In this document: positions 1,163-47,061 of the stretch, in pieces
Position numbering within the stretch: the stretch's first letter is position 1
Layout: each line of letters begins with the position of its first letter
Source of the DNA: Pollenia angustigena
Taxonomy: Eukaryota > Arthropoda > Insecta > Diptera > Polleniidae
Reading direction: 5' to 3'
Assembly (NCBI GenBank): GCA_930367215.1
Contig: OV884059.1
Span: forward strand, 36,075,882-36,139,881
DNA: 64,000 nucleotides
Program-made: the position numbers and the translations under genes
The notes under the pieces: model-generated
What the model saw: the letters and a program-made list of their open reading frames with translations, nothing else
What the model was told of the DNA's origin: nothing
Database searches by the model: none

Positions 1163-1243
1163 TGTTTTGGTTACTTTTTTTCACTTTTGGTTACTTTATT
1201 TTTACATTTTGGTTACAATTTTTTTTTTGGTTGTGGCAACGCT
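1163..1243 (-). repeat. Short tandem motif at the end of an unknown element
   Basis: On the minus strand the stretch starts CAGCGTTGCCACAACC and continues with four spaced copies of GTAACCAAAA. It cuts off the Penelope endonuclease that follows at 1244. The start resembles the hAT-X end at 4129 (CAGCGTTACCG), so it may be a related terminus. Confidence 0.35.
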
Positions 1244-1622
1244 GTATGTGATTTCTCTCCGCACAAGGGGCTGCAAGTGCTGTTTTATGTGTCAGTAAAC
1301 TATTTCTGCATTTTAAATCCGATTTGTGTCCTGCAATTCTCGTCTTTAATTTATTTTTGGTAGTTCCTACATATACTTGATCGCATACGTTGTTTCCATC
1401 ACCATTGCACTCTATTTTATATATTACGTTCGACTTCTCCATTTTATCCACTTTTGTTTTTGTGTTAGAAAACAGATTTCGGAGTGTGTTTTCTGATCTT
1501 GGCGCTGTTTTATATTTTACTTTATTGTAAACACCTGACTTTTCTATTCTTTCTGATATGTGTGGTATATATGTCATTGATTTATAGATTCGTGGTTCTA
1601 CTTCTTCTCTTGTGATGTTTTT
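1244..1622 (-). pseudogene. Penelope GIY-YIG endonuclease (3' truncated)
   Basis: Continues the RT frame after a TAG stop. The GIY-YIG signature shows as VIYKIEC followed by QVYVGTTKNKLKTRIAGHK, giving the two tyrosines and the arginine. The frame then runs to AERNHI, where homology to the plus-strand copy ends at about 1244; the C-terminal segment with the metal-binding glutamate is missing. The enzyme nicks DNA to prime reverse transcription in this family. Confidence 0.82.
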
Positions 1623-3098
1623 CTATTTATTATTATTTTTTATTAGACTATTGATAATATTTTGTGGAAAAGAGTTTTTCCTTAGGTTTTCCTTAATCTT
1701 TTTGATATTTTCCTTATGAAATCCCCTGTCGCTAATCATTAGTACCCTGTTTATAAGATTACTAGTCGTGTTTATAATGATATTTTTGGGTTGGCATGAA
1801 TAAAAATTGATAATTCTTCCAGATGAAGTCGGTTTTTGGTACCAATCTATTTTAATTTTACTGTCTTTTCTTACAATCAGTATATCCAAATATGGTAATC
1901 TTTCATTTTCTTCTTCTTCAATTGTAAATTTTATATGTTGGTGAAAACTATTAAGTTCGGCTAGGGTGTCATCTATTGCATTTGTATTGATAATCCCAAA
2001 GAGGTCGTCAACGTATTTTGTAAGTAGTCTGGGTTTAGTTTTAAGATGATGAACGCAATGTTTGAGTAATTCCTCCATTACTATGTCTGCTACAATAGGT
2101 GAAGCTGGTGAACCCATTGGAAGGCCCTTACACTGAGTGTAAATTCTATTTTTGTATTTGAAATACCTATTTTCTTTAATGCAGAATTTTAAGACTTTTA
2201 AGAAAAGTACCTTTGACATCGTTGTGTGTTCCTGTGGACTGAAACACTTATTTTTGATAATATCTATAGCATAATCAACAGGAATATTCGGGAATAATGA
2301 TATTACGTCAAAGGAAATTAATTTTTCATCGTCACTTATTGCGGTATTATTAATATTATTACTAAATTGCACTGCATCCCTTACATTAAATTCAGATTTT
2401 TTCGTGAGTTTATTAAGAATATTTACCATAAACTTACAGAGTTCTCTTGATGGCGATTTAATTGATGAACAAATCGGTCTTAACGGAAAACCCTCTATGG
2501 ATCTTTGGTAATCCGTATATTCTTGGAGCTAGTGCCGCGTCAGTTTTCATTCGTCTTTTTTCTTTGCATTGCACTTAAATAATTCTTCGACTAGATCTCC
2601 TATAAGTCATTAAATCACACAGAATCTCATTCATTCTAGTCTCGTAATCATGTTTTTCCATGGCCACTGTGACGTTGCCTTTGTCGGCATTTAATATCAG
2701 AATATTCTTATTTCTCTTCAAAAATGCTTTTGCCTGGCCCACTGCGTTCAATACAAAACGCTCTCTTTTGTCTAGACTTCGTTTATTCAGATGATTTTCT
2801 ATCATCGTTGTAAACTTCGTCCGTGCAATTTCTTGTTGTTCTTTATCTTCTAACGTTAAAATGCAGTCTTCGCCATCAGCAATGAATTTAAATAAAGGGA
2901 ATTGTTTGTTTTCTGTTGGAATCGTATGTTTCTGTCCTCGTGAAAGAACCCACCCAACATCCTCTTTTATGTGTATGTTGGTTTTGTTTACAAACCACTT
3001 GTCATTAAATACTATTTCCAATTCTTTTCTTTGTTTTTCCCTTAAGTTTTCAAACTTTCTTTTGTGCGTATTCTTAATTTCACTGTTTTTCTTATTTA
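1623..3098 (-). pseudogene. Penelope reverse transcriptase (broken)
   Basis: The N-terminal part (3098-2575) is basic and contains ILNADKGN, a conserved Penelope segment upstream of the catalytic core. The core at 2429-1623 has motif A (SFDVISLFPNIP), motif B (QCKGLPMGSPASP) and the catalytic YVDD of motif C (TKYVDDLFGI), followed by the thumb region. The two parts are separated by an in-frame TAA at about 2575 and a frameshift near 2500 in the segment reading APRIYGLPKIH. An in-frame TAG at 1623-1625 separates RT from the endonuclease, which continues in the same frame. It would have copied element RNA at nicked target DNA. Confidence 0.88.
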
Positions 3099-4103
3099 GA
3101 AAACAAAAACAAAAGTGGATAAAATGGAAAAGTCGAACGTAATATATAAAATAGAGTGCAATGGTGATGGAAACAACGTATGCGATCAAGTACAGTTAAA
3201 CCTCGATTAACCGGGCCTCTATTAATCGGTTACATCTATTAACCGGCATGCGGTTCTTTTTATTTTTTACCTCTATTATCCGTGCTTCACCTCTATTATC
3301 CGTGCTTAAGATTTATACCTTTATTTACCGTGCTTTACATGTATTATCCGTGCAGCATTCATATGCTTTTGTTAGGTTAATCTAAATCCGGTGTTTCCCC
3401 TTTTTAAGTTAATGTGCCCACACATAAGAACATATTTGCGTTTGTATTAATTTAGTAAGTGAAATTTGAACATTTCGTCAGAAGAAATGCAAAAACAAAA
3501 AAGCATAAAACGTCGTAAAATGTACAAATTTTGTGCACTACATGAGTTTGTTCAACCAAAGCATAATCAGTAAATATTTGATTTTGCATTGTCTATGGGA
3601 ATTTGTATGTTTTTTATAAAAATATGTGGTATATTTGAATCTGCAGTTCCATAAATTTAATGTTGAAATAAAAATAAATAAAAAAAAAAAAATAAATTTC
3701 TGTATATATTAATATAACCTCTATTAACCGTGTATTTCGATTATCCGTGCTGGTGCCGGTCCCACGAGAGCCGGATAATAGAGGTTTAACTGTATATGTA
3801 GGAACTACCAAAAATAAATTAAAGACGAGAATTGCAGGACACAAATTGGATTTAAAATGCAGAAATAGTTTACTGACACATAAAACAGCACTTGCAGCCC
3901 ATTGTGCGGAGAGAAATCACATTCCCAAACTGGACGACATACAAATATTACAAACAGAAGAGAGGTACAATAAGCGACTTACACTGGAAATGCTACATAT
4001 AATAAACATAAGACAAGATAAGAGAATTAATTTTAAGAGTGACGTAGACAACGTAGCACAGAGCTTTAGGCATATTAAAAATAAGAAGAGAAAGGATCAA
4101 TAG
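3099..4103 (+). pseudogene. Penelope GIY-YIG endonuclease, inverted fragment, split by a pogo-like insertion
   Basis: Plus-strand fragment of the same family as copy 1. Codons up to ...NNVCDQV lie at 3121-3190 and resume with YVGTTKNK at 3795. Everything between is a 600-bp TA-flanked insertion. After it the domain is complete, including the downstream segment LTLEMLHI that carries the expected glutamate, and ends at a TAG at 4101-4103. Removing the insertion and one TA leaves the reading frame open, so the endonuclease part was probably intact when the element landed. Confidence 0.85.
3193..3792. mobile_element. pogo/Tigger-like non-autonomous DNA element
   Basis: Terminal inverted repeats start CAGTTAAACCTC and the insertion is flanked by a TA duplication (3191-3192 and 3793-3794), as in the Tc1/mariner-pogo group. 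The ends carry several spaced copies of TCTATTATCCGTGC, likely transposase-binding repeats. No transposase is present. It sits inside the GIY-YIG coding frame. Confidence 0.82.
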
Positions 4104-4436
4104 TGCAATTTTAAATGTGAACCAGCGTTACCGTTGGTGCCACTAAAGTGGCCATTTGCCACTTTTTCGACTGCTTGGATACTATTTGGCCACTTTTACA
4201 AAATGCACCTAAATGTGGTACTTTTTGTGATTCTTGCCACTTTTTTGATACTTTTTACGTTAGGAAAAGATACTTTTTTTCTTTCTGTTTTGTTATAACT
4301 CCCAGCTTTAATATAAGTAAAACTGTTTTAATATATGTATATGTAAGCAAGTTTATATGAAATTTATTTTCTTGACATCCGTGGTTAGCTGAAAATCTGT
4401 TGAATAAACTTTCTATTAACCTGTTTTATTTATTAT

Positions 4437-11439: not shown

Positions 11440-12300
11440 GCACTTTACGGGGCGTACGAAAAAAAAAAATTGGACCCCTCTAGAATAAAAAAAGAAAAAA
11501 ACCAAAATTCAAATTTAAGGAGAAGAGCCCATGGATCAAAAAACCGCCCCGCCCACTTAGTGGTATGTGTGGGTACTCAAATTAAAGGTAATTGTGCAAA
11601 AAAACGAAAATAATAAAATTTAGGTCTGGCGGTACTTCTGGGCCCCTCTGGGAGTAAAAAAATTTCCCCTCCCACCCTTATAACTATGTGTGGGTACTCG
11701 AATGAAAGGTATTTGGCTTACGATTGTAAATATTTTGTTTTTATTTTGTATTTAAGGATTTTTGCAAGGATTTTCTCCTCTTTGTTATAACAAAGACCGG
11801 CTTCGCTTACTAAAGTTTATCTGCATAGACGGCCTTCGGCCGGACGCAAGGATTTTCTCCTCTATGGTATAACAAAGACCGGCTTGGCTAACTAAAGCAT
11901 GTCTGCATAGACGGCCTTCGGCCGGGCGCAAGGATTTTCTCCTCTATGGTATAAGAAAGACCAGCTTCGCTAACTAAAGCTTCCCTGCATATAAAATATA
12001 CATAAATTAACCTAGAGAGGAAAATATTAAACGAATACAAAAACAAAATACATATTTGCAATCGTGAGCAAATTACCTTTAATTTGAGAACCCACACAGA
12101 TATACATAAATGTTTTGGGGGGGGACACTTTTTTGCTTTATTTTCGTTTTTCTTGCACAATTACCTTTAATTTGAGTACCCACAGATACCAATCAGTAGG
12201 CGGGGCAGTTTTTGGACCCAGGGGTCCCCACGGGCCTCAGTCCCCTTAAATTTTAATTTTGGTTTTTTTTAATTCTGAATCGGGTGGCACTTCAGCCGCA
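11440..12300. mobile_element. Inverted-repeat element with satellite core
   Basis: Left arm (about 11440-11610) and right arm (about 12125-12295) share inverted phrases such as GTGTGGGTACTCAAATTAAA with ACCTTTAATTTGAGTACCCAC, and CCGCCCCGCC with GGCGGGGC. hAT-B at 14650-15501 lacks this block, so it is an insertion. The core holds three 82-bp units. Boundaries are approximate. Confidence 0.55.
11764..11990 (+). repeat. 82-bp GC-rich satellite, three direct units
   Basis: Units begin GCAAGGATTTTCTCC at 11764, 11846 and 11928. Each holds two hairpin-forming stretches, GGCCTTCGGCC and CCGGCTTCGC. The same unit recurs at 30725-31145 in another transposon. Confidence 0.85.
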
Positions 12301-24158: not shown

Positions 24159-24400
24159 TTATTTTGACAGTTGTTGAAAGAAACTTTTCGCAAAATATAG
24201 TTATAGAAACACTTTTTCTCGCATGCTTCCAATAATTGCTGGCAAATTATTTCTGTCATTTAAATAATTTGCCAATTCTCGCAAAAAAAGGCACAGAAAC
24301 TCTTGTGTGAGAAAAACCATTTTTTGTAATTTTCCTATTTTTAAGCTTGTTAGGCCTGGAGCTTCAATGTAAATAAAACATCAATTTTATTACAGTTTTT

Positions 24401-24440
24401 CCCAACGTTTCGTAGAGTATTTTTCTACTTCTTCAGGGGG
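24401..24440 (-). ncRNA. Hammerhead-ribozyme-like core in Penelope 3' region
   Basis: Minus strand: CCCC, then CUGAAGA (fits CUGANGA), an A, a stem GUAGA...UCUAC, then GAA, the palindrome ACGU as a minimal stem III, U, and GGG that can pair with CCC as stem I. The order of elements is that of a type-I hammerhead, a motif known from Penelope-like elements. Stem I is only about 3 bp, so activity is doubtful. Confidence 0.45.
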
Positions 24441-24626
24441 TGTCTATTTAAATATGTGTAAAAACGTACAGTATTTTTTTAAACCATGTATATAACTTAC
24501 AAATTTTTTTGATTATATTACATTTTTAAATATTTTATTTGTAAAAACAAAAAACAATTAACAATAATAATTTTCAACCACATCTCTTTCTAGTATCACA
24601 GTGAAAAACTTTTTTAAATTTGTTTA

Positions 24627-24916
24627 TCAATTTAAAACAACCCTGTAATTAATGTTGATGTTGTCTGTGTCTTCTTTCAGATTCATCGTCTTATTTATTT
24701 TCTGTTGGATTCGTAAACTTTCAATCGTATATCTCTTTTTTTCAACATTCTCTCTATCCAATATTTTGACGTTTTCAAAATCAGCAGTATGACCATGGTG
24801 TAACATATGTTGTGCTAGTGCTGTTGTTTCTTTGATTTTTGTTATGTCAATGTATATGAGGTCGCATGGTTCGTCATTATTACCTTTACATTGTATTTCG
24901 TATACAACGTTACTTA
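24627..24916 (-). pseudogene. Penelope GIY-YIG endonuclease, copy 2
   Basis: After the MITE the frame reads VVYEIQCKGNNDEPCDLIYI, matching the GIY and YIG positions (second motif degraded: YID for YVG), then HGHTADFENVKILD and RYTIESLRIQQK with the expected Glu. The usual motif Arg/Lys helix is shortened. The stop is at 24627. Upstream linker codons lie at 25172 and higher, on the other side of the MITE. Confidence 0.75.
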
Positions 24917-25163
24917 CACAAAGCATACAGAGATGAAAAAAGTGACGTATGAAAAATGTCCAAATCATTTGCGAGGGCAGCTTTCGAAGAAAGAGAAGGA
25001 AAAAGTTTTTTTGGTAGTGAAGTGGCAATGTGTAAAAACAGGCCGCTACTATCAACACGAACTGCGTAATCAAAACAAAAAATGCAAAAAGGGCAGCTTT
25101 AGAAGAAAGAGACGGCAAAAAACGCAAAATCTTCCGTCTCGTGACGTCTCTGTATGCTCTGTG
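24917..25163. mobile_element. 247-bp hAT MITE (CACARAGCATACAGAGA ends), copy 1
   Basis: 17-bp inverted ends and a perfect 8-bp duplication GTTACTTA (24909-24916, 25164-25171). It splits the linker of Penelope copy 2. Copies 2 and 3 are at 43737 and 40280. Confidence 0.92.
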
Positions 25164-25355
25164 GTTACTTATTTGTTGTTTGTCGATGGGTGTTTTAGTT
25201 CTTGTAAAAATTGTGTTGATCGTTCTATTTGGTTTATAAGCAAAACAAGTGTTTTTTGTCTTTATTGTGTTTCTTATGTTCGCATTATCAATAAGGTGTG
25301 GAACATATGGTACACTGTAAAAAACTTTTGGTGGTTCTTCCGTAATTAAGTTGGT

Positions 25356-25823
25356 TCAGTTATTTTGTTTTAATTGTGTTATTGCACTTTTAATCAGACA
25401 TTTGGTTAAGTTATTGGGAAAACAGTTATTTTTTAAAATTTTACGGATAATTTCAATATTTTTGTCGTGAAATACTTCATCGCTTATATTTAGAACTCTC
25501 TTAATAAAACTTTTTGCTGTATTTATTATTTGATTCATTGGTTGAGTAGTGTAATAATTCATTATCCTGCCTGATGATGTCTCTTTTGTAAACCAGTTAA
25601 ATATTATTGTATCTTCCGCCCTATGTAATTTTGTGTCCAGAAACGCTATTCTCCCTTCATTTTCCATCTCCATTGTAAATTTAATTTTAGAATGATAATC
25701 ATTCAATGTTTTTAGAATAATGTCCTTGTCTTGGGATGAAATTATTGCCAAGAAGTCGTCTACATATTTTGTGATGTATTTGATATTAATGTTGATCTCG
25801 TTAAGTTTTGCCAGTGCTTTCAT
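25356..25823 (-). pseudogene. Penelope reverse transcriptase, C-terminal half
   Basis: Starts within the palm at KYITKYVDDFLAI, so the catalytic YVDD is present but motifs A and B are missing. It continues with GRIAFLDTKLHR, FTKETSSGRIMNYYTTQP and the thumb region up to LIKSAITQLKQNN, where a stop precedes the linker. Same layout as 1623-2429 but only moderate identity. Confidence 0.85.
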
Positions 25824-30492: not shown

Positions 30493-31539
30493 GGTGGCAT
30501 GTCATAACGTCCAGTGTCATAACGTCCAGTGTCATAACGTCCATCAAAGAAATGTCATAGCGTCCGCGGACGTTATGACACTTTGCAAAGTGTCATAATG
30601 TCCACAACTTAACTTATAATGAAAAATATTAAAATGTGTAAAATTTGTTTTGAAATATCAAAATAAGTAAGTATAATGCCAAAAATTCTTACAATTAAGA
30701 ATGTAAACAAATTTGGGATCATAGCCGGCCTTCGGCCGGGCGCAAAGATTTTCTTCTTATGGTATAACAAATACCGGCTTCGCTAACTAAAGCTTCTCTG
30801 CACAGCCGGCCTTCGGCCGGGCGCAAGGATTTTCTCCTCTATGGTATAACAAACACCGGCTTCGCTAAGTAAAGCTTCTAAAATCTGCCTTGTTTCCGAA
30901 CGAAAGCCGACTATGCAGAGAAGCTTTAGTTAGCGAAGCCGGTGTTTGTTATACCATAGAGGAGAAAATTCTTGCGCCCGGCCGAAGGCCGGCTGTGCAG
31001 AGAAGCTTTAGTTAGCGAAGCCGGTGTTTGTTATACCATAGAGGAGAAAATCCTCGCGCCCGGCCAAAGGCCGGCTGTGCACAGAAGCTTTAGCTAGCGA
31101 AGCCGGTATTTGTTATAGCATAGAGGAGAAAAACCTTGCGCCCAAAAGTGTTTTCGTTATATATTTAATATATACACCCAGAAAAAAACCGCAAAACAAT
31201 TTTTAAACATTTTTTTACCATATTATGTTTCATTTAACCAAATGATTGTCACCGACAACCATATTATGGTTAAATTAGTTTCTTTAAAAATAGCTTTGTT
31301 GGCTGGGACCATAATGAAACATGTTTTTCTCTGCGTGTATGCAGATCATTTTTTTGTATTTAACTTCTTTAGTAATTTAACTTTTGAAAGTGTCATAATG
31401 TCCATTTGCAAAGTGTCATAGTGTCCATGGACGTTATGACACTTTTGAAAGTGTCATAATGTCCATGGACACTATGACACTTTTTGGAGTGTCATAACGT
31501 CCATGGACACTATGACACTGGACGTTATGACATGCCACC
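30493..31539. mobile_element. 1047-bp inverted-repeat element (GGTGGCATGTCATAACGTCC ends)
   Basis: Perfect inverted ends of about 29 bp. Perfect 8-bp duplication CTAAAGTC (30485-30492, 31540-31547). The ends are made of repeated GTGTCATARYGTCCA units, five or more per side. The centre holds the 82-bp satellite. The GG start is not hAT-like, so the superfamily is open. Confidence 0.85.
30725..31145. repeat. 82-bp satellite, two plus and three minus units
   Basis: Two units read plus (from about 30725 and 30806) and three read minus; the phrase AGAAGCTTTA recurs at 30919, 31001 and 31083, exactly 82 bp apart. The two blocks face each other, so the array can fold back. Same unit as 11764-11990. 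Confidence 0.88.
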
Positions 31540-32860: not shown

Positions 32861-35800
32861 CAGGGATGTCAGCGCCTTGCACAATTGTGCAAATTAATTC
32901 ACATGTACGCTTACGCTCTTTTATTTTGCGAGCGTAAAATATAATTGTTTACTGAGAAACACTCTCATTCAGCGGGAAATATCGCAAATATTGCAAGGCC
33001 TGTTTTGAGGCCTCTAAATATATTTATGTATATAAATAAATATACAATAACTGTATGTAGGTACATCTTTTTTTTTTGTTTTATTATCTTTTTTATTTTA
33101 TTTATTATCTATGTTTTTGTTTTGTTTTATTTCTATTTTTGACATTGTACAATGATTTTAAAACAGGGATTTCCATTTCTTTGCACAATTGTGCAATTGT
33201 GGTTATTTTTTAAGATAGAATTTTAAAATTTTATAAAAATATATATGTAAAGTGAATCCTAATCAACAAAAATTTCAAATTTTCAAAATAATTGTTTTGC
33301 ATTTAAGCTAACGATATGTGTTTTGTTCGTGAAAAATATTCGTTGATGCCTGTAACAGGGTCCCTTTTTCTTTCGTTAAAAAGACGTACCTAAATGCAGA
33401 AATTATTAAGAAAAGAAAAAGCCACAAGAATTTGTTGGTATTTTGTGATTGTAAAAATATTTTTGTTTCTGTAGCAATCGCGTCGGTGGGTTTTTTTTTT
33501 GAAAACTCTTTTCTTGAGTAGGTAAAAATATTTAAAAAACAAGTTAAAAAAGTCTTGTTTTGCTACAATTTATGTGTAAACCTATACACATAAAAGCAAA
33601 TGTGACAGCAGGTAAAATTTTTGGGTAAGAAGATGTGTTTTATTGATGTATTAATGAAACTTTATTGTTTCGCACTATTTTTATTGCTTACTTTTTTATG
33701 CTACAATTATATGACCGAGTCTAAAGAGTAAACCTTACTACTTTATGGTATTTATTTAACGTAACTTTGACCTGTTATAATGACTTCCCTGCAAACAAAT
33801 GGAAGATATCCCCTAAGGCAATAGTGTAGCAATATCTCCAAATTGTCATCTAAAAGAAAATAATCAAAGTAATATTTTATTTTCTTCCTTTTATAATTTT
33901 TTAGAAAATTACGCAATTTTTTTTTAAATTTAATACATACGTCATAAATAAAAAATAAAAATTAATCCAATTATTAAAACTTAAAAATTATTTCTCAAAA
34001 TATTCTGCAAAAGGTAAATATTTAAATTAAATAAATCGGTTAAATATTGATCTGTTTCCTTTTAAATTTAGTCAAGAATTTCTCAACCCTGGATGCAATT
34101 TTAAAGAAGTGGTAGGTTTTTTTTAAAGAATTTGGTGGAAGCTAAATATTTATGTATATTTTTTACTTTATTTTAATGATAAATTATATTATGTTAAGTA
34201 AAATTTATACGTATACAATTACCAATTTAATTTTAAATAAAAAGCTGTGCTTTTTTGTACCCAAATGGCAATTTTTTTAAATGCAAAATCTTCTTTTTAT
34301 CTTCCCAATGATATTTTGGTGATATCTTCCTATTTTCTTAAAAGTGGTTATCTGGCGATATTGCCAGTTAATCATCTAGCAGTATCGCTTTCGTATTGCT
34401 TAGAAGTATTGCCATCGAGACACGTTTCTTCCCGAAGGAAGTATCTTCCGCAATACGAAATCGATTATTACCGCAATAACATTTTTCATCCAGGCAATAC
34501 GTTTGGCAATACATAAGGTGTATTTCTGTGTTTGCTGGGTTTATACATTTTTGCAGGCAAACTCAGGTGCGCATTTGGTATTTTGTAAAAAGTTATGATA
34601 TACCATTAGCTAGAATTAAAATGTATGCACAGATGTTTGAAGTATGAGTAACCCAACACCGTGAATACCCTTTCTATTTTACTTACCACTATGAATACCC
34701 TAACTTTTTACTAAAATAACTTTTTCACGTTATAATTCTCATGTAATTCATTTTATTTTTGAATAAATAGACCAGGGAAATCCATTTCTATGTACAATTG
34801 TGTATACCTGTAAACTTCAAATTAGAATTTCATTTAATAGTCTTGTAGGCAGCGATAACGGACGTGCAAGCGGATGAGTTTATTAAAAAAAAGATAAATG
34901 ATGCCATATAAAAAATATTTTATGATAAAAAATGCATTTAATTATTTTCAATGTCTCTTATGTTTTAAAACATTTGAACTTAAGAGATTGTATACTTTGA
35001 AAAGGCATTATGATCATTTCCATAATGATATTAAACAATATGAAGTAAAAGAAAGGGAAAACCAATATAAGATTAAAAAAAAGATTTATTTGGATAGCTT
35101 GAAAAGTTGGGTATCACAAGAAGAAGAGCATGAAGATAGGATAGAAGAGTTAAAAATAGAAATATCAAATTTACTAACTTTGGAAATAGTAAAACAGGGA
35201 AGACCATTTTCCGATGGGGCATTTATAAAAAAGCTTTTCAATGCAGTTTTGGAAAAACTGAAAATCGATTGCAGCGTAATAAAAACGCTTCCCATGAGCC
35301 GAAATAGTGTCGTCAAGCGCACATCAATTTTAGCTGCACATATACAATCTGTGATTAGGGAAAAGTTAAAAAATTGTGAATATTTTTCTTTTTGCCTCGA
35401 CGAAAGCACCGACATTAATGATCTTTGCCAATTGGTCATTTGTGTTCGATGCATAGATAGTGAGTACAATGTTTTTGAAACTATGTACTCACTTGAAACG
35501 TTTTACGGTAATGTAACAGGTAAGGTATTATACGACGTAGTCTTTGAAAACCTGATATCTGTTACACAAGCTTCAAAATTAGCAGGAGTTTGCACGGATG
35601 GTGCAAACGTTATGGCCGGGAAGTATGAAGGTTTCGTAGGACAGCTTAAGCAAAATGGAATTGATGTACATGCTTTCCATTGTATAATTCATCAGTCCAT
35701 GCTTGCCTCAAAATTTATAAGTGATCATGCCGCTATTAAGACTGCAGAGCGGATAATCAATAGAATACGGGGGGTGGGCCATCATTCATTAACGCACAGA

Positions 35801-36463
35801 AAATTTGTAAGTTTTCTTAAAAACGTAAACGCCAATCACCACGACTTATTATAGGCTAGTAAAATCTACTCTTTTTATAATGGTGGTAAATACTTACAGA
35901 ATATTTTTAAACTTAATATTTGCATTAGTATGAGCAAATGAATTTTCATTGTTAGAATTCGCAAAGGTATGTTGAGCAAAAAACGAAAAATATTGGAAAG
36001 AATTGTATTAGGTTGTAAAAAGACTTCAAATATTGTGAACTGCGCAATTTTTTCAAAAAATAAGCAGTTTCTGAGGTTCCAAATTAAATTTATTTAAATA
36101 ATAACTGATTGTGTCTGTCCATAACTCAACATTTTTCGATAATTGTATTATTATTTATTGCTTTTAAGTCTTCATAGCAATAAATGTAAGTTAACTTTAA
36201 ATGGTCTGATGAAAAATGAATGGAAAGCATGAACAATATTTCCTCGCATAATGCTGGCCCTGGTGTTTGCATCGCCCTTTCATGAAAATGTTTTGTAAGT
36301 TTTAATACCTTACCTGATTCCCAACAATTTAATCGAACATAGATGACCCCTAGAAAAGGTCTTTAATAAGGCCTCGCAATAGGCCTCGCAACCGCATATT
36401 TCGCCGCTGGGCATGTAAGAGATAAGAGTAATCTCACCAACACAATCATAATTGACATCACTG
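32861..36463 (+). mobile_element. 3.6-kb hAT element with partial transposase
   Basis: Starts CAGGGATGTCAGCGCC, ends TTGACATCACTG. Perfect duplication ATTTAGAC (32853-32860, 36464-36471). Subterminal GCAAGGCCT / AGGCCTCGC motifs at both sides. Encodes the first half of a hAT transposase. A 1.1-kb derivative with the same ends is at 57061-58156. Confidence 0.93.
34898..35854 (+). pseudogene. hAT transposase, N-terminal half
   Basis: 318 codons, the longest open frame in the window. Residues 18-45 contain a zinc finger (CLLCFKTF then HYDHFHN). At about 160-185 CEYFSFCLDESTDINDLCQL gives the first catalytic Asp of the RNase-H fold. CTDGANVMAGKYEGFVGQL gives the second, followed by the insertion-domain motif AFHCIIHQSMLASKF (CxxH). 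It stops right after NANHHDLL, with 600 bp left to the element end. The third catalytic Glu and the dimerisation domain are absent, so it is a C-terminally deleted copy; typical members of this subgroup are about twice as long. Confidence 0.9.
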
Positions 36464-38063: not shown

Positions 38064-38290
38064 AAATGTATAATGCAACATTTTTCATTTTTCGAATTTA
38101 TGCTATGAGCTAAATTTCAGTTATGTATTTTATAAAGCTTTTTTGTAATAGTTCTATTCCTTAAATTTTTCAGAAATGACTTTATACACTACCAGACTAT
38201 TATATTGTATTTTCTTTTTACATTTTACCTTAGCCTTCCTTTGGAAAGCAATGAGGTATATTGAATGTACAGAAAATTTTACAATTATTA

Positions 38291-38353
38291 GACACCAGCA
38301 GAATGTAATGCATTTTCTGGCCCGCTACGGCCTTCGTCAGCATTCTTTGTGTC
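38291..38353 (-). ncRNA. Type-I hammerhead ribozyme, unit 1
   Basis: Minus strand: stem I strand GACAC-AA-AGAAUG, core CUGACGA, A, stem II GGCC-GUAGCG-GGCC, A, core GAA, stem III AAUG/CAUU (palindrome, no loop), A17, then stem I return CAUUCU-GCUG-GUGUC. Predicted cut between 38306 and 38305. An A-A mismatch closes the base of stem II, which may slow the reaction. Confidence 0.72.
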
Positions 38354-38644
38354 TCACTGGATAGTGTTACTTTATAAAATGAATGTATTTAACTCAACTA
38401 TTTTAACAAATAGAAACTGGGAATTATTTCCTTCCGAAGGTTACTTTATATTATATTCAACATTTTTCATTTTTCCAATTTATTCTATGTGCTAAATTTC
38501 AGTTATGTATTTTATAAAGCTTTTTTGTAATAGTTCTATTCCTTCAATTATTATATTGTATTTTTTTTTACATTTTACCTTAGCCTTCCTTTGGAAAGCA
38601 ATGAGGTACATATATTGAATGTACAGAAAAATTTACAATTATTA

Positions 38645-38707
38645 GACAGCAGCAGAATGTAATGCATTTTCTGGCTCGCTACGGCCTTCGTCAGCATTCT
38701 TTGTGTC
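38645..38707 (-). ncRNA. Type-I hammerhead ribozyme, unit 2
   Basis: Same layout as unit 1. Stem II has one change (GAGCC for GGGCC) and the outer stem I one mismatch (CUGUC). Predicted cut between 38660 and 38659. Confidence 0.68.
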
Positions 38708-39028
38708 TCCCTGGATAGTGTTACTTTATAAACTGAATGCATTTAACTCAACTATTTTAACAATTAGAAATTGGGAATTATTTCCTTGTGAAGGTTACTT
38801 TATATTATTATAAACATTTTTTTCATTTTTCGAATTTATTCTATGAGTTAAATTTCAGTTATGTATTTTGTAAAGCTTTTTTGTAATAGTTCTATTCCTT
38901 AAATTTTTCAAAAATGACTTTATACACTACCAGACTATTATATTGTATTTTCTTTTTACATTTTACCTTAGCCTTCCTTTGGAAAGCAATGAGGTATATT
39001 GAATGTACAGAACAATTTACAATTATCA

Positions 39029-39091
39029 GACACCAGCAGAATGTAATGCATTTTCTGGCCCGCTACGGCCTTCGTCAGCATTCTTTGTGTC
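39029..39091 (-). ncRNA. Type-I hammerhead ribozyme, unit 3
   Basis: Identical to unit 1 over the 63 positions read. Predicted cut between 39044 and 39043, 384 bp from unit 2. Confidence 0.72.
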
Positions 39092-39448
39092 TCACTGGAT
39101 AGTGTTACTTTATAAAGTGAATGTATTTAACTCAACTATTTTAACAAATAGAAACTGGGAATTTTTTCCTTCCGAAGGTTACTTTATATTACATTCAACA
39201 TTTTTCATTTTTCGAATTTATTCTATGAGCTAAATTTCAGTTATGTATTTTATAAAGCTTTTTTGTAATAGTCCTATTCCTTCAATTATTCAGAAATGAC
39301 TTGAAGGAATAGGACTATTACAAAAAAGCTTTATAAAATACATAACTGAATTTTAGCTCATAGAATAAATTCGAAAAATGAAAAATGTTGAATATAATAT
39401 AAAGTAACCTTCGGAAGGAAATAATTCCCAGTTTCTAAATGTATAATG

Positions 39449-46532: not shown

Positions 46533-47061
46533 AATGAACCAAACCAAACTACTAAAACTTTAACGAAAAAAAGCAACGCATCACACGTGTTCTTCAATAA
46601 AAAGCAAAGAAACCCAAAACACACAAAAATCTAACGGTTCTGTAACGATTTTTTTATTTTGCTTTTTCATTCGTTAAATAGGAATTATTTTATTTTGCCA
46701 TTCGCTATATAAGGTAGTTAATGTAAAAATTTGGCCATTCGTTATATGGGATATTCGTTAAACTGCGTATTCGTTATACCGGGCTTTGACTGTAGAACTA
46801 TTGCTTATAAGTCTTATACGTTTAACAGTTTTATTTGGTTTAATATCTTTAGTTTTTCTAAAATCTTTATGGATGAAGTTTCCTGATGATCTGGCCTAAG
46901 CAACCAGTGAAATGCGCATAGGAATAGCTTATCCCATCAACAATAAATTTCAAGTGTTTTTATCAAGAATAAAAACTGGGAATTAAGCACGGATAACAAA
47001 ATCTTTTGTTTTTATAGAAAATTGTAACAACATTTCAGTAATTAAAAAATTATATATATTT

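Follow-up and report, generated by a model that had tools for sequence, protein, structure and literature searches.

A probable hammerhead retrozyme family in the fly Pollenia angustigena with head-to-head arms and ends at two internal sites

Results

Structure of the element

The window, by which we mean the whole 64-kb stretch of Pollenia angustigena DNA analysed here (31% GC), contains at 38064–39448 a tandem array of related units on the minus strand, which is closed by an inverted piece and bounded on both sides by a target-site duplication (TSD). Each of the three unit junctions carries a type-I hammerhead motif. The features are:

38064–38075, no strand: left TSD, AAATGTATAATG, 12 bp (shifted-boundary control, 0/40)
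38076–39300, minus strand: direct cDNA arm, made up of partial unit a, unit b, unit c and partial unit d
38076, minus strand: outer 3′ end of the direct arm, putative reverse transcriptase (RT) start site 1, unit position ~230
38076–38305, minus strand: partial unit a, 230 bp
38290–38358, minus strand: type-I hammerhead, intact form, A10.1·A11.1, predicted cleavage 38305/38306
38306–38659, minus strand: unit b, 354 bp
38644–38712, minus strand: type-I hammerhead with two lesions, predicted cleavage 38659/38660
38660–39043, minus strand: unit c, 384 bp
39028–39096, minus strand: type-I hammerhead, intact form, predicted cleavage 39043/39044
39044–39300, minus strand: partial unit d, 257 bp
39301–39436, plus strand: inverted (head-to-head) second cDNA arm, 136 bp
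39436, plus strand: outer 3′ end of the inverted arm, putative RT start site 2, unit position ~275
39437–39448, no strand: right TSD, AAATGTATAATG, 12 bp, a perfect match to the left TSD

In the minus sense, the order is the inverted 136 bp, the 257 nt of partial unit d, the complete units c (384) and b (354), and finally the 230 nt of partial unit a, with 38076 as the last position. The inverted piece is 97.1% identical to unit b and 97.8% identical to unit d. Both outer ends are directly adjoined by AAATGTATAATG, and the duplication measures 13 bp if one extra T is counted. Two random 12-mers from the window would be identical with a probability of 3 × 10^-6, or 4 × 10^-4 with a boundary slack of 11 × 11. 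An earlier note on this DNA had described tandem minus-strand units with predicted cleavage sites 354 and 384 bp apart, a 136-bp inverted piece closing the array, and perfect 12-bp flanking repeats. We recovered both spacings and found the inverted piece and the repeats, the latter abutting the element.

The window copy has no poly-A tail. A 37-aa ORF overlaps the hammerhead in units a and c, and its frame is shifted in unit b. Matches to miRNAs in Rfam (E ≤ 10) were rejected, being located on the long palindrome around 39300. Elsewhere in the window, tandem repeats of ~82 bp with GGCCTTCGGCC palindromes are present in both orientations (11764–11991, 30723–30879 and 30901–31143). A 318-aa ORF on the plus strand (34898–35854), presumably a transposon-derived gene, has a zf-C2H2_12 match just under the Pfam cut-off.

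Copies in the genome

We searched the host assembly (1.37 Gb in 31 contigs) for further copies. The hammerhead core, with up to three mismatches, occurred 8,318 times (4,190 + 4,128), and the reversed-pattern control gave no matches. Pattern searches of the viral_contigs and genome_contigs collections, which are not animal genomes, returned none. A DNA search of the host assembly with the region around the putative start sites, in a mode that passes over common words, also gave no match. Searching with the 354-bp unit produced 709 candidates, 40 of which were scored to give 27 loci including the window, and a second sample of 20 loci was taken in position order from exact matches to the hammerhead core. 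In total, 47 loci were analysed: 26 from the unit search, 20 from the core search, and the window. Once loci that leave their stretch (L010, L011, L012, L014 and L017) and blocks shorter than 200 bp had been dropped, the analysable set comprised 44 blocks from 42 loci. Positions within the unit follow the numbering of a reference unit and are accurate to within a few nt where units carry indels.

The unit is ~382 nt long, and some loci hold long arrays of it. L009 has 12 hammerhead junctions and units mostly of 382 bp, 7 of 11 of them identical, and no TSD was found there. L012 is unit sequence throughout its 5.5 kb. The array in L017 (C6:3984000-3993990) extends over at least 9.4 kb; many of its units lack 45 bp (reference 317–361) and others the last 34 bp. 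The earlier note had held that its reading would fail if other copies formed a long satellite without target duplications or belonged to a larger coding element. Long arrays of this sort do describe some copies (L009, and L010, L012, L014 and L017, which leave their stretch), but not the short ones. A larger coding element was not seen, matches to coding sequence of Penelope-like elements (PLEs) being present in only 2 of the 47 loci.

A second hammerhead element lies in the window at 46792–47007 on the plus strand, with its hammerhead at 46883, U·U at the base of stem II and a palindromic stem III. It has copies in L038, L040 and L020 as well as diverged ones in L030, L036 and L037; some stop short and others continue for another ~46 nt, a hint of the same two-ended structure. 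The two elements have a stretch of ~34 nt in common (83%), in opposite orientation. In L040, a retrozyme block at ~2319–2945 interrupts the second element within its 3′ tail and is flanked by a 13-bp TSD, AATTTTGTATTCC.

Hammerhead motifs

The earlier note had placed a hammerhead in each full unit. The parts are as it described, but the middle motif (38659/38660) is damaged, with G to A in stem II and G to C in the outer pairing of stem I. A descriptor scan of the whole 64-kb window, in which a mismatch was permitted in the first stem II pair (a choice made after the original observation had been seen), returned the three unit-junction hammerheads and one more at +46883, compared with 0.025 sites expected per 64 kb from 40 first-order Markov windows. 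The note had taken the lack of a hammerhead hit above threshold as a refutation of its reading, and as far as Rfam goes this was the outcome: Rfam 15 produced no hammerhead match in the whole window at the gathering score and none at E ≤ 10 on four stretches including 38270–38380, although the motif stands far above its chance rate in the descriptor scan. The unconstrained minimum-energy fold of the intact motif formed stems I and II and the outer extension of stem I, with the caveat that two core nucleotides were paired with stem III letters.

Among 126 hammerheads from 27 loci, which are not independent and in which long arrays weigh most, the pair 10.1–11.1 was always A·A or C·A and never Watson–Crick: position 10.1 was A in 69 and C in 57, and position 11.1 was A in 126/126. 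The remaining core positions were kept in 125–126 of these 126 motifs. In other hammerheads this pair is among the most conserved, and the mismatch best tolerated there is U·U (PMC3088659), which is found in the axolotl HHR_Amex2, a weak cleaver as a monomer (PMC7229834). The A–A mismatch at the base of stem II, earlier called unusual, is real and general in this family, but it has a precedent in the U·U of HHR_Amex2 (PMC7229834) and other natural hammerheads (PMC3088659). Activity of the retrozyme hammerhead with an A·A or C·A pair is a plausible prediction and should not be assumed.

The hammerhead was not clearly better conserved than the remaining unit. In a comparison from which L038 and L039 were removed as divergent, and for which 20 loci had been preselected by an exact core match, the rate of minor states was 0.020 in the hammerhead and 0.028 in the rest of the unit, and 12.8% of circular shifts were as low. 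With the 45 bp missing from them, many L017 units have lost the 5′ half of the motif, and in L022 one half of stem II is absent from two motifs. A dimeric form, which has been reported for other hammerheads, would be allowed by the palindromic stem III. Cofolding two copies gave a dimer fold, but its energy gain of −9.9 was matched by 60 of 200 mononucleotide shuffles, so the cofold is no proof of a dimeric hammerhead.

Insertion ends

The 44 blocks comprised 28 head-to-head blocks, 16 in a single orientation and none tail-to-tail. Exact TSDs of 10–17 bp with a score of at least 9 flanked 18/28 head-to-head blocks and 5/756 control pairings, in which left and right flanks were paired across different loci. 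With the threshold lowered to 7, the numbers were still 18/28 for the head-to-head blocks and 44/756 for the control. None of the 16 single-orientation blocks had a TSD, and none reached a score of 7.

All 18 TSD-flanked head-to-head blocks had one end at unit position 227–237 and the other at 271–283, the spacing between the two sites being 39–53 nt (median 44 nt). If each end chose freely and equally between the sites, the chance of 18/18 would be 4 × 10^-6. The site windows were fixed after the first sample had been viewed; in the second sample (20 loci), the end rule was obeyed by 9/9 TSD blocks. Untrimmed ends gave the same pattern, and the rule is therefore not produced by trimming of the TSD. 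Overall, 23/28 head-to-head blocks had one end per site, including five outside the TSD set (L020, L046, L048, L051 and L054; windows 222–245 and 266–292). The other five (L016, L022, L031, L043 and L052) had at least one end outside both sites, and none of the ten blocks outside the TSD set had both ends at one site. All 18 TSD blocks, the window copy among them, terminate at the two internal sites beside the TSD, without a poly-A or simple-repeat 3′ end of the LINE type. As far as the accessible text of the openly licensed literature goes, we found no earlier report of a one-site-per-end rule for retrozymes.

Arms and template RNA

Arms longer than 292 nt, which hence run across the cleavage junction, made up 43 of 72. 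Because they cross it, these arms were not templated by a single cleaved linear monomer; the RNA copied may have been a circle, an uncleaved multimer, or monomers joined by template jumps. The 5′ ends of arms fell within 3 nt of the junction in 3/72 cases, with 1.1 expected. Two arms of the same locus were on average 97.3% identical, compared with 94.0% between loci, and the within-locus value was the higher one in 20 of 23 loci (the exceptions being L018, L042 and L046). The two arms of a locus look as if they had been copied from one RNA.

The identical units of L009 are what would be expected of a rolling copy of one circle, although homogenisation after insertion could have a similar outcome. 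In the case of the window copy, one monomer circle is unlikely to have been the template, because the units have diverged unequally: one carries 14 private changes and the others 2 and 3 (P = 0.001). Compared with itself at an offset of 738, the window array is 97.1% identical, and two sites group units a and c against b and d, which would fit a dimeric or multimeric template. One site groups unit d with the inverted arm.

Penelope-like elements in the window and near copies

The window contains remains of two PLEs:

1209–4112, minus and plus strands: PLE1 relic, head-to-head composite
24609–25823: PLE2 coding remains

In PLE1, a minus-strand copy reaching to ~3099 is joined head-to-head to a plus-strand C-terminal copy from 3100, and the plus copy is interrupted at ~3193–3791 by an insertion of roughly 600 bp with CCTCTATTA-type ends. 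The 302 proteins matched by its pieces include, among the best 120 listed, many unnamed ones and some from Musca, Haematobia, Lucilia, Eurosta and Drosophila virilis. The retrozyme unit showed no likeness to either window PLE by blastn or by local alignment, the latter being a weak comparison with gap costs that were too lax. About 170 nt downstream of the PLE2 remains, at 24390–24452 on the minus strand, lies a minimal hammerhead-like motif (CUGAAGA, GUAG/CUAC, GAA, CCC/GGG); Rfam found nothing on this stretch.

A tblastn search of the 47 loci with 120 PLE proteins (E ≤ 1e-5) matched two loci, L028 and L049, the queries representing one PLE group, so that decayed or distant PLEs would escape it. 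No PLE-coding match fell inside a retrozyme block, and no RT/endonuclease ORF was found within the element. The match in L049 is ~1.7 kb from the block. That in L028 (1407–1685, 36%, C-terminal part) ends ~20 bp before the block that starts at 1706. Because the match is oriented against the neighbouring arm and is separated from it by the TSD, we take it for a remnant of a PLE located at the target site.

Discussion

Our preferred reading, held with a probability of about 0.8, is that the element belongs to a metazoan-type non-LTR retrozyme with thousands of copies, whose non-coding type-I hammerhead unit of ~382 nt would be moved in trans by the RT/endonuclease of a PLE. Like the metazoan non-LTR retrozymes described previously, it forms non-coding tandem units (170–400 nt in those) with a type-I hammerhead and thousands of copies, has TSDs of more than 4 bp where present, co-exists with PLEs, and has a weak stem II base, comparable to the U·U of HHR_Amex2 (PMC7229834). 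It differs from them in its A·A or C·A pair at 10.1–11.1 and in its resolved ends, with head-to-head arms and two end sites, one per side. Insects are mentioned in one sentence as metazoan retrozyme hosts by Cervera and de la Pena (2020, PMC7229834), who argued that PLEs move retrozymes because the two have features in common and occur together. The plant LTR retrozymes are also non-autonomous, hammerhead-bearing and tandem, but have type III hammerheads, LTRs with PBS and PPT, and a 4-bp TSD (PMC7761336, PMC11722881).

PLE copies consist of pLTRs, often with an adjacent inverted pLTR, most often head-to-head, with TSDs of 8–10 bp where present and an optional 31-bp tail on one inverted pLTR (PMC3846280). 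An anole PLE protein was reported to cut and extend both strands in vitro, with internal starts at two adjacent sites, the stretch between which is the genomic tail that the authors term unique to PLEs (PMC11167929). The fly element shares partial tandems, an adjacent head-to-head copy, a short TSD, an optional one-sided tail, AT-rich targets and a hammerhead (PMC3846280, PMC11167929). Its tail has a median of 44 nt, as against 30–40 bp in published PLEs of other animals. Unlike PLEs, its unit has no RT/endonuclease coding, and its hammerhead is canonical where the PLE form is minimal.

In another reading, the unit would belong to an unrecognised PLE family as its pLTR or 5′ region, and an autonomous PLE would be the source of the copies, as its solo or tandem pLTRs. 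Insertion anatomy is the same as that of PLE pLTRs (PMC3846280), pLTRs contain hammerheads, and in L028 a C-terminal PLE match lies ~20 bp from a retrozyme block. However, PLE coding was present in just two of the 47 loci, in the opposite sense and across a TSD in L028 and ~1.7 kb off in L049, and unit directly succeeds unit at the 126 hammerhead junctions. The extended stem I and the stem III of 2 bp plus a tetraloop are also canonical and retrozyme-like, unlike the minimal PLE form (PMC7229834, PMC7761336). We consider it unlikely that the copies are pLTRs.

Movement by an enzyme of the LINE (non-LTR) type, with the inversion arising from ordinary twin priming, seems to us more doubtful still. 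Twin priming in LINEs yields 5′ inversions together with TSDs, and would account for both features here. A twin-primed LINE copy should show a scattered second start, whereas in 18/18 blocks the two ends adjoining the TSD lie at fixed internal sites, each end at a different one, and the window copy is without a poly-A tail. A 2024 review names LINEs or PLEs as candidate movers of retrozymes (PMC11722881). Least probable of all is a satellite origin, with tandem units produced by unequal exchange and the locus a piece of such an array. Long arrays do occur, over the whole 5.5 kb in L012 and ~9.4 kb in L017, and with 7/11 identical units in L009, but the short dispersed copies with TSDs and fixed ends disfavour a satellite origin.

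Returning to a retrozyme moved by a PLE, the earlier note had proposed that a Penelope-type enzyme copied the element and that priming on both strands gave the inversion. Many copies do share the TSD, the inversion and the two-site end rule; the PLE enzyme itself we still infer. The simplest reading of the ends is that both 3′ ends of the target would be extended on the sense RNA from two internal places. The head-to-head palindromes of PLEs have been explained as self-priming on an antisense template (PMC3846280), but two fixed outer ends beside a TSD would be better fitted by priming on two strands. We conclude that these junctions, as read from genomic copies, point to insertion of a retrozyme by PLE machinery.

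The insertion may be envisaged as follows. A multimeric retrozyme RNA, either read-through or possibly circular after predicted hammerhead cleavage and ligation, would be bound by a PLE protein, which would cut both strands of an AT-rich target 10–17 nt apart. Both 3′-OH ends of the target would then prime cDNA synthesis on this one RNA, starting at site 1 (~230) in one case and at site 2 (~275) in the other. Joining of the two cDNAs where they meet 5′-to-5′ would produce both the TSD and the head-to-head inversion. In one respect this departs from the anole PLE in vitro: the retrozyme ends of TSD blocks are always at differing sites, whereas Frangieh et al. report a start site that was alike on both strands, and hammerhead mutants without effect on insertion (PMC11167929). 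We lean, by a modest margin of belief, towards an obligately asymmetric PLE reaction, in which a paired complex on one RNA would use site 1 for one strand and site 2, ~44 nt off, for the other. Retrozymes would then persist by carrying the two-site start region, and their hammerhead would work, if at all, without a Watson–Crick pair at 10.1–11.1.

The ends fixed at two internal sites, taken together with TSDs and head-to-head arms, bring junction evidence to bear on which enzyme moves animal retrozymes. The question of the mover becomes testable in terms of the RNA motif, the protein and the reason for one site per strand, and the retrozyme family offers a high-copy model for this in a fly.
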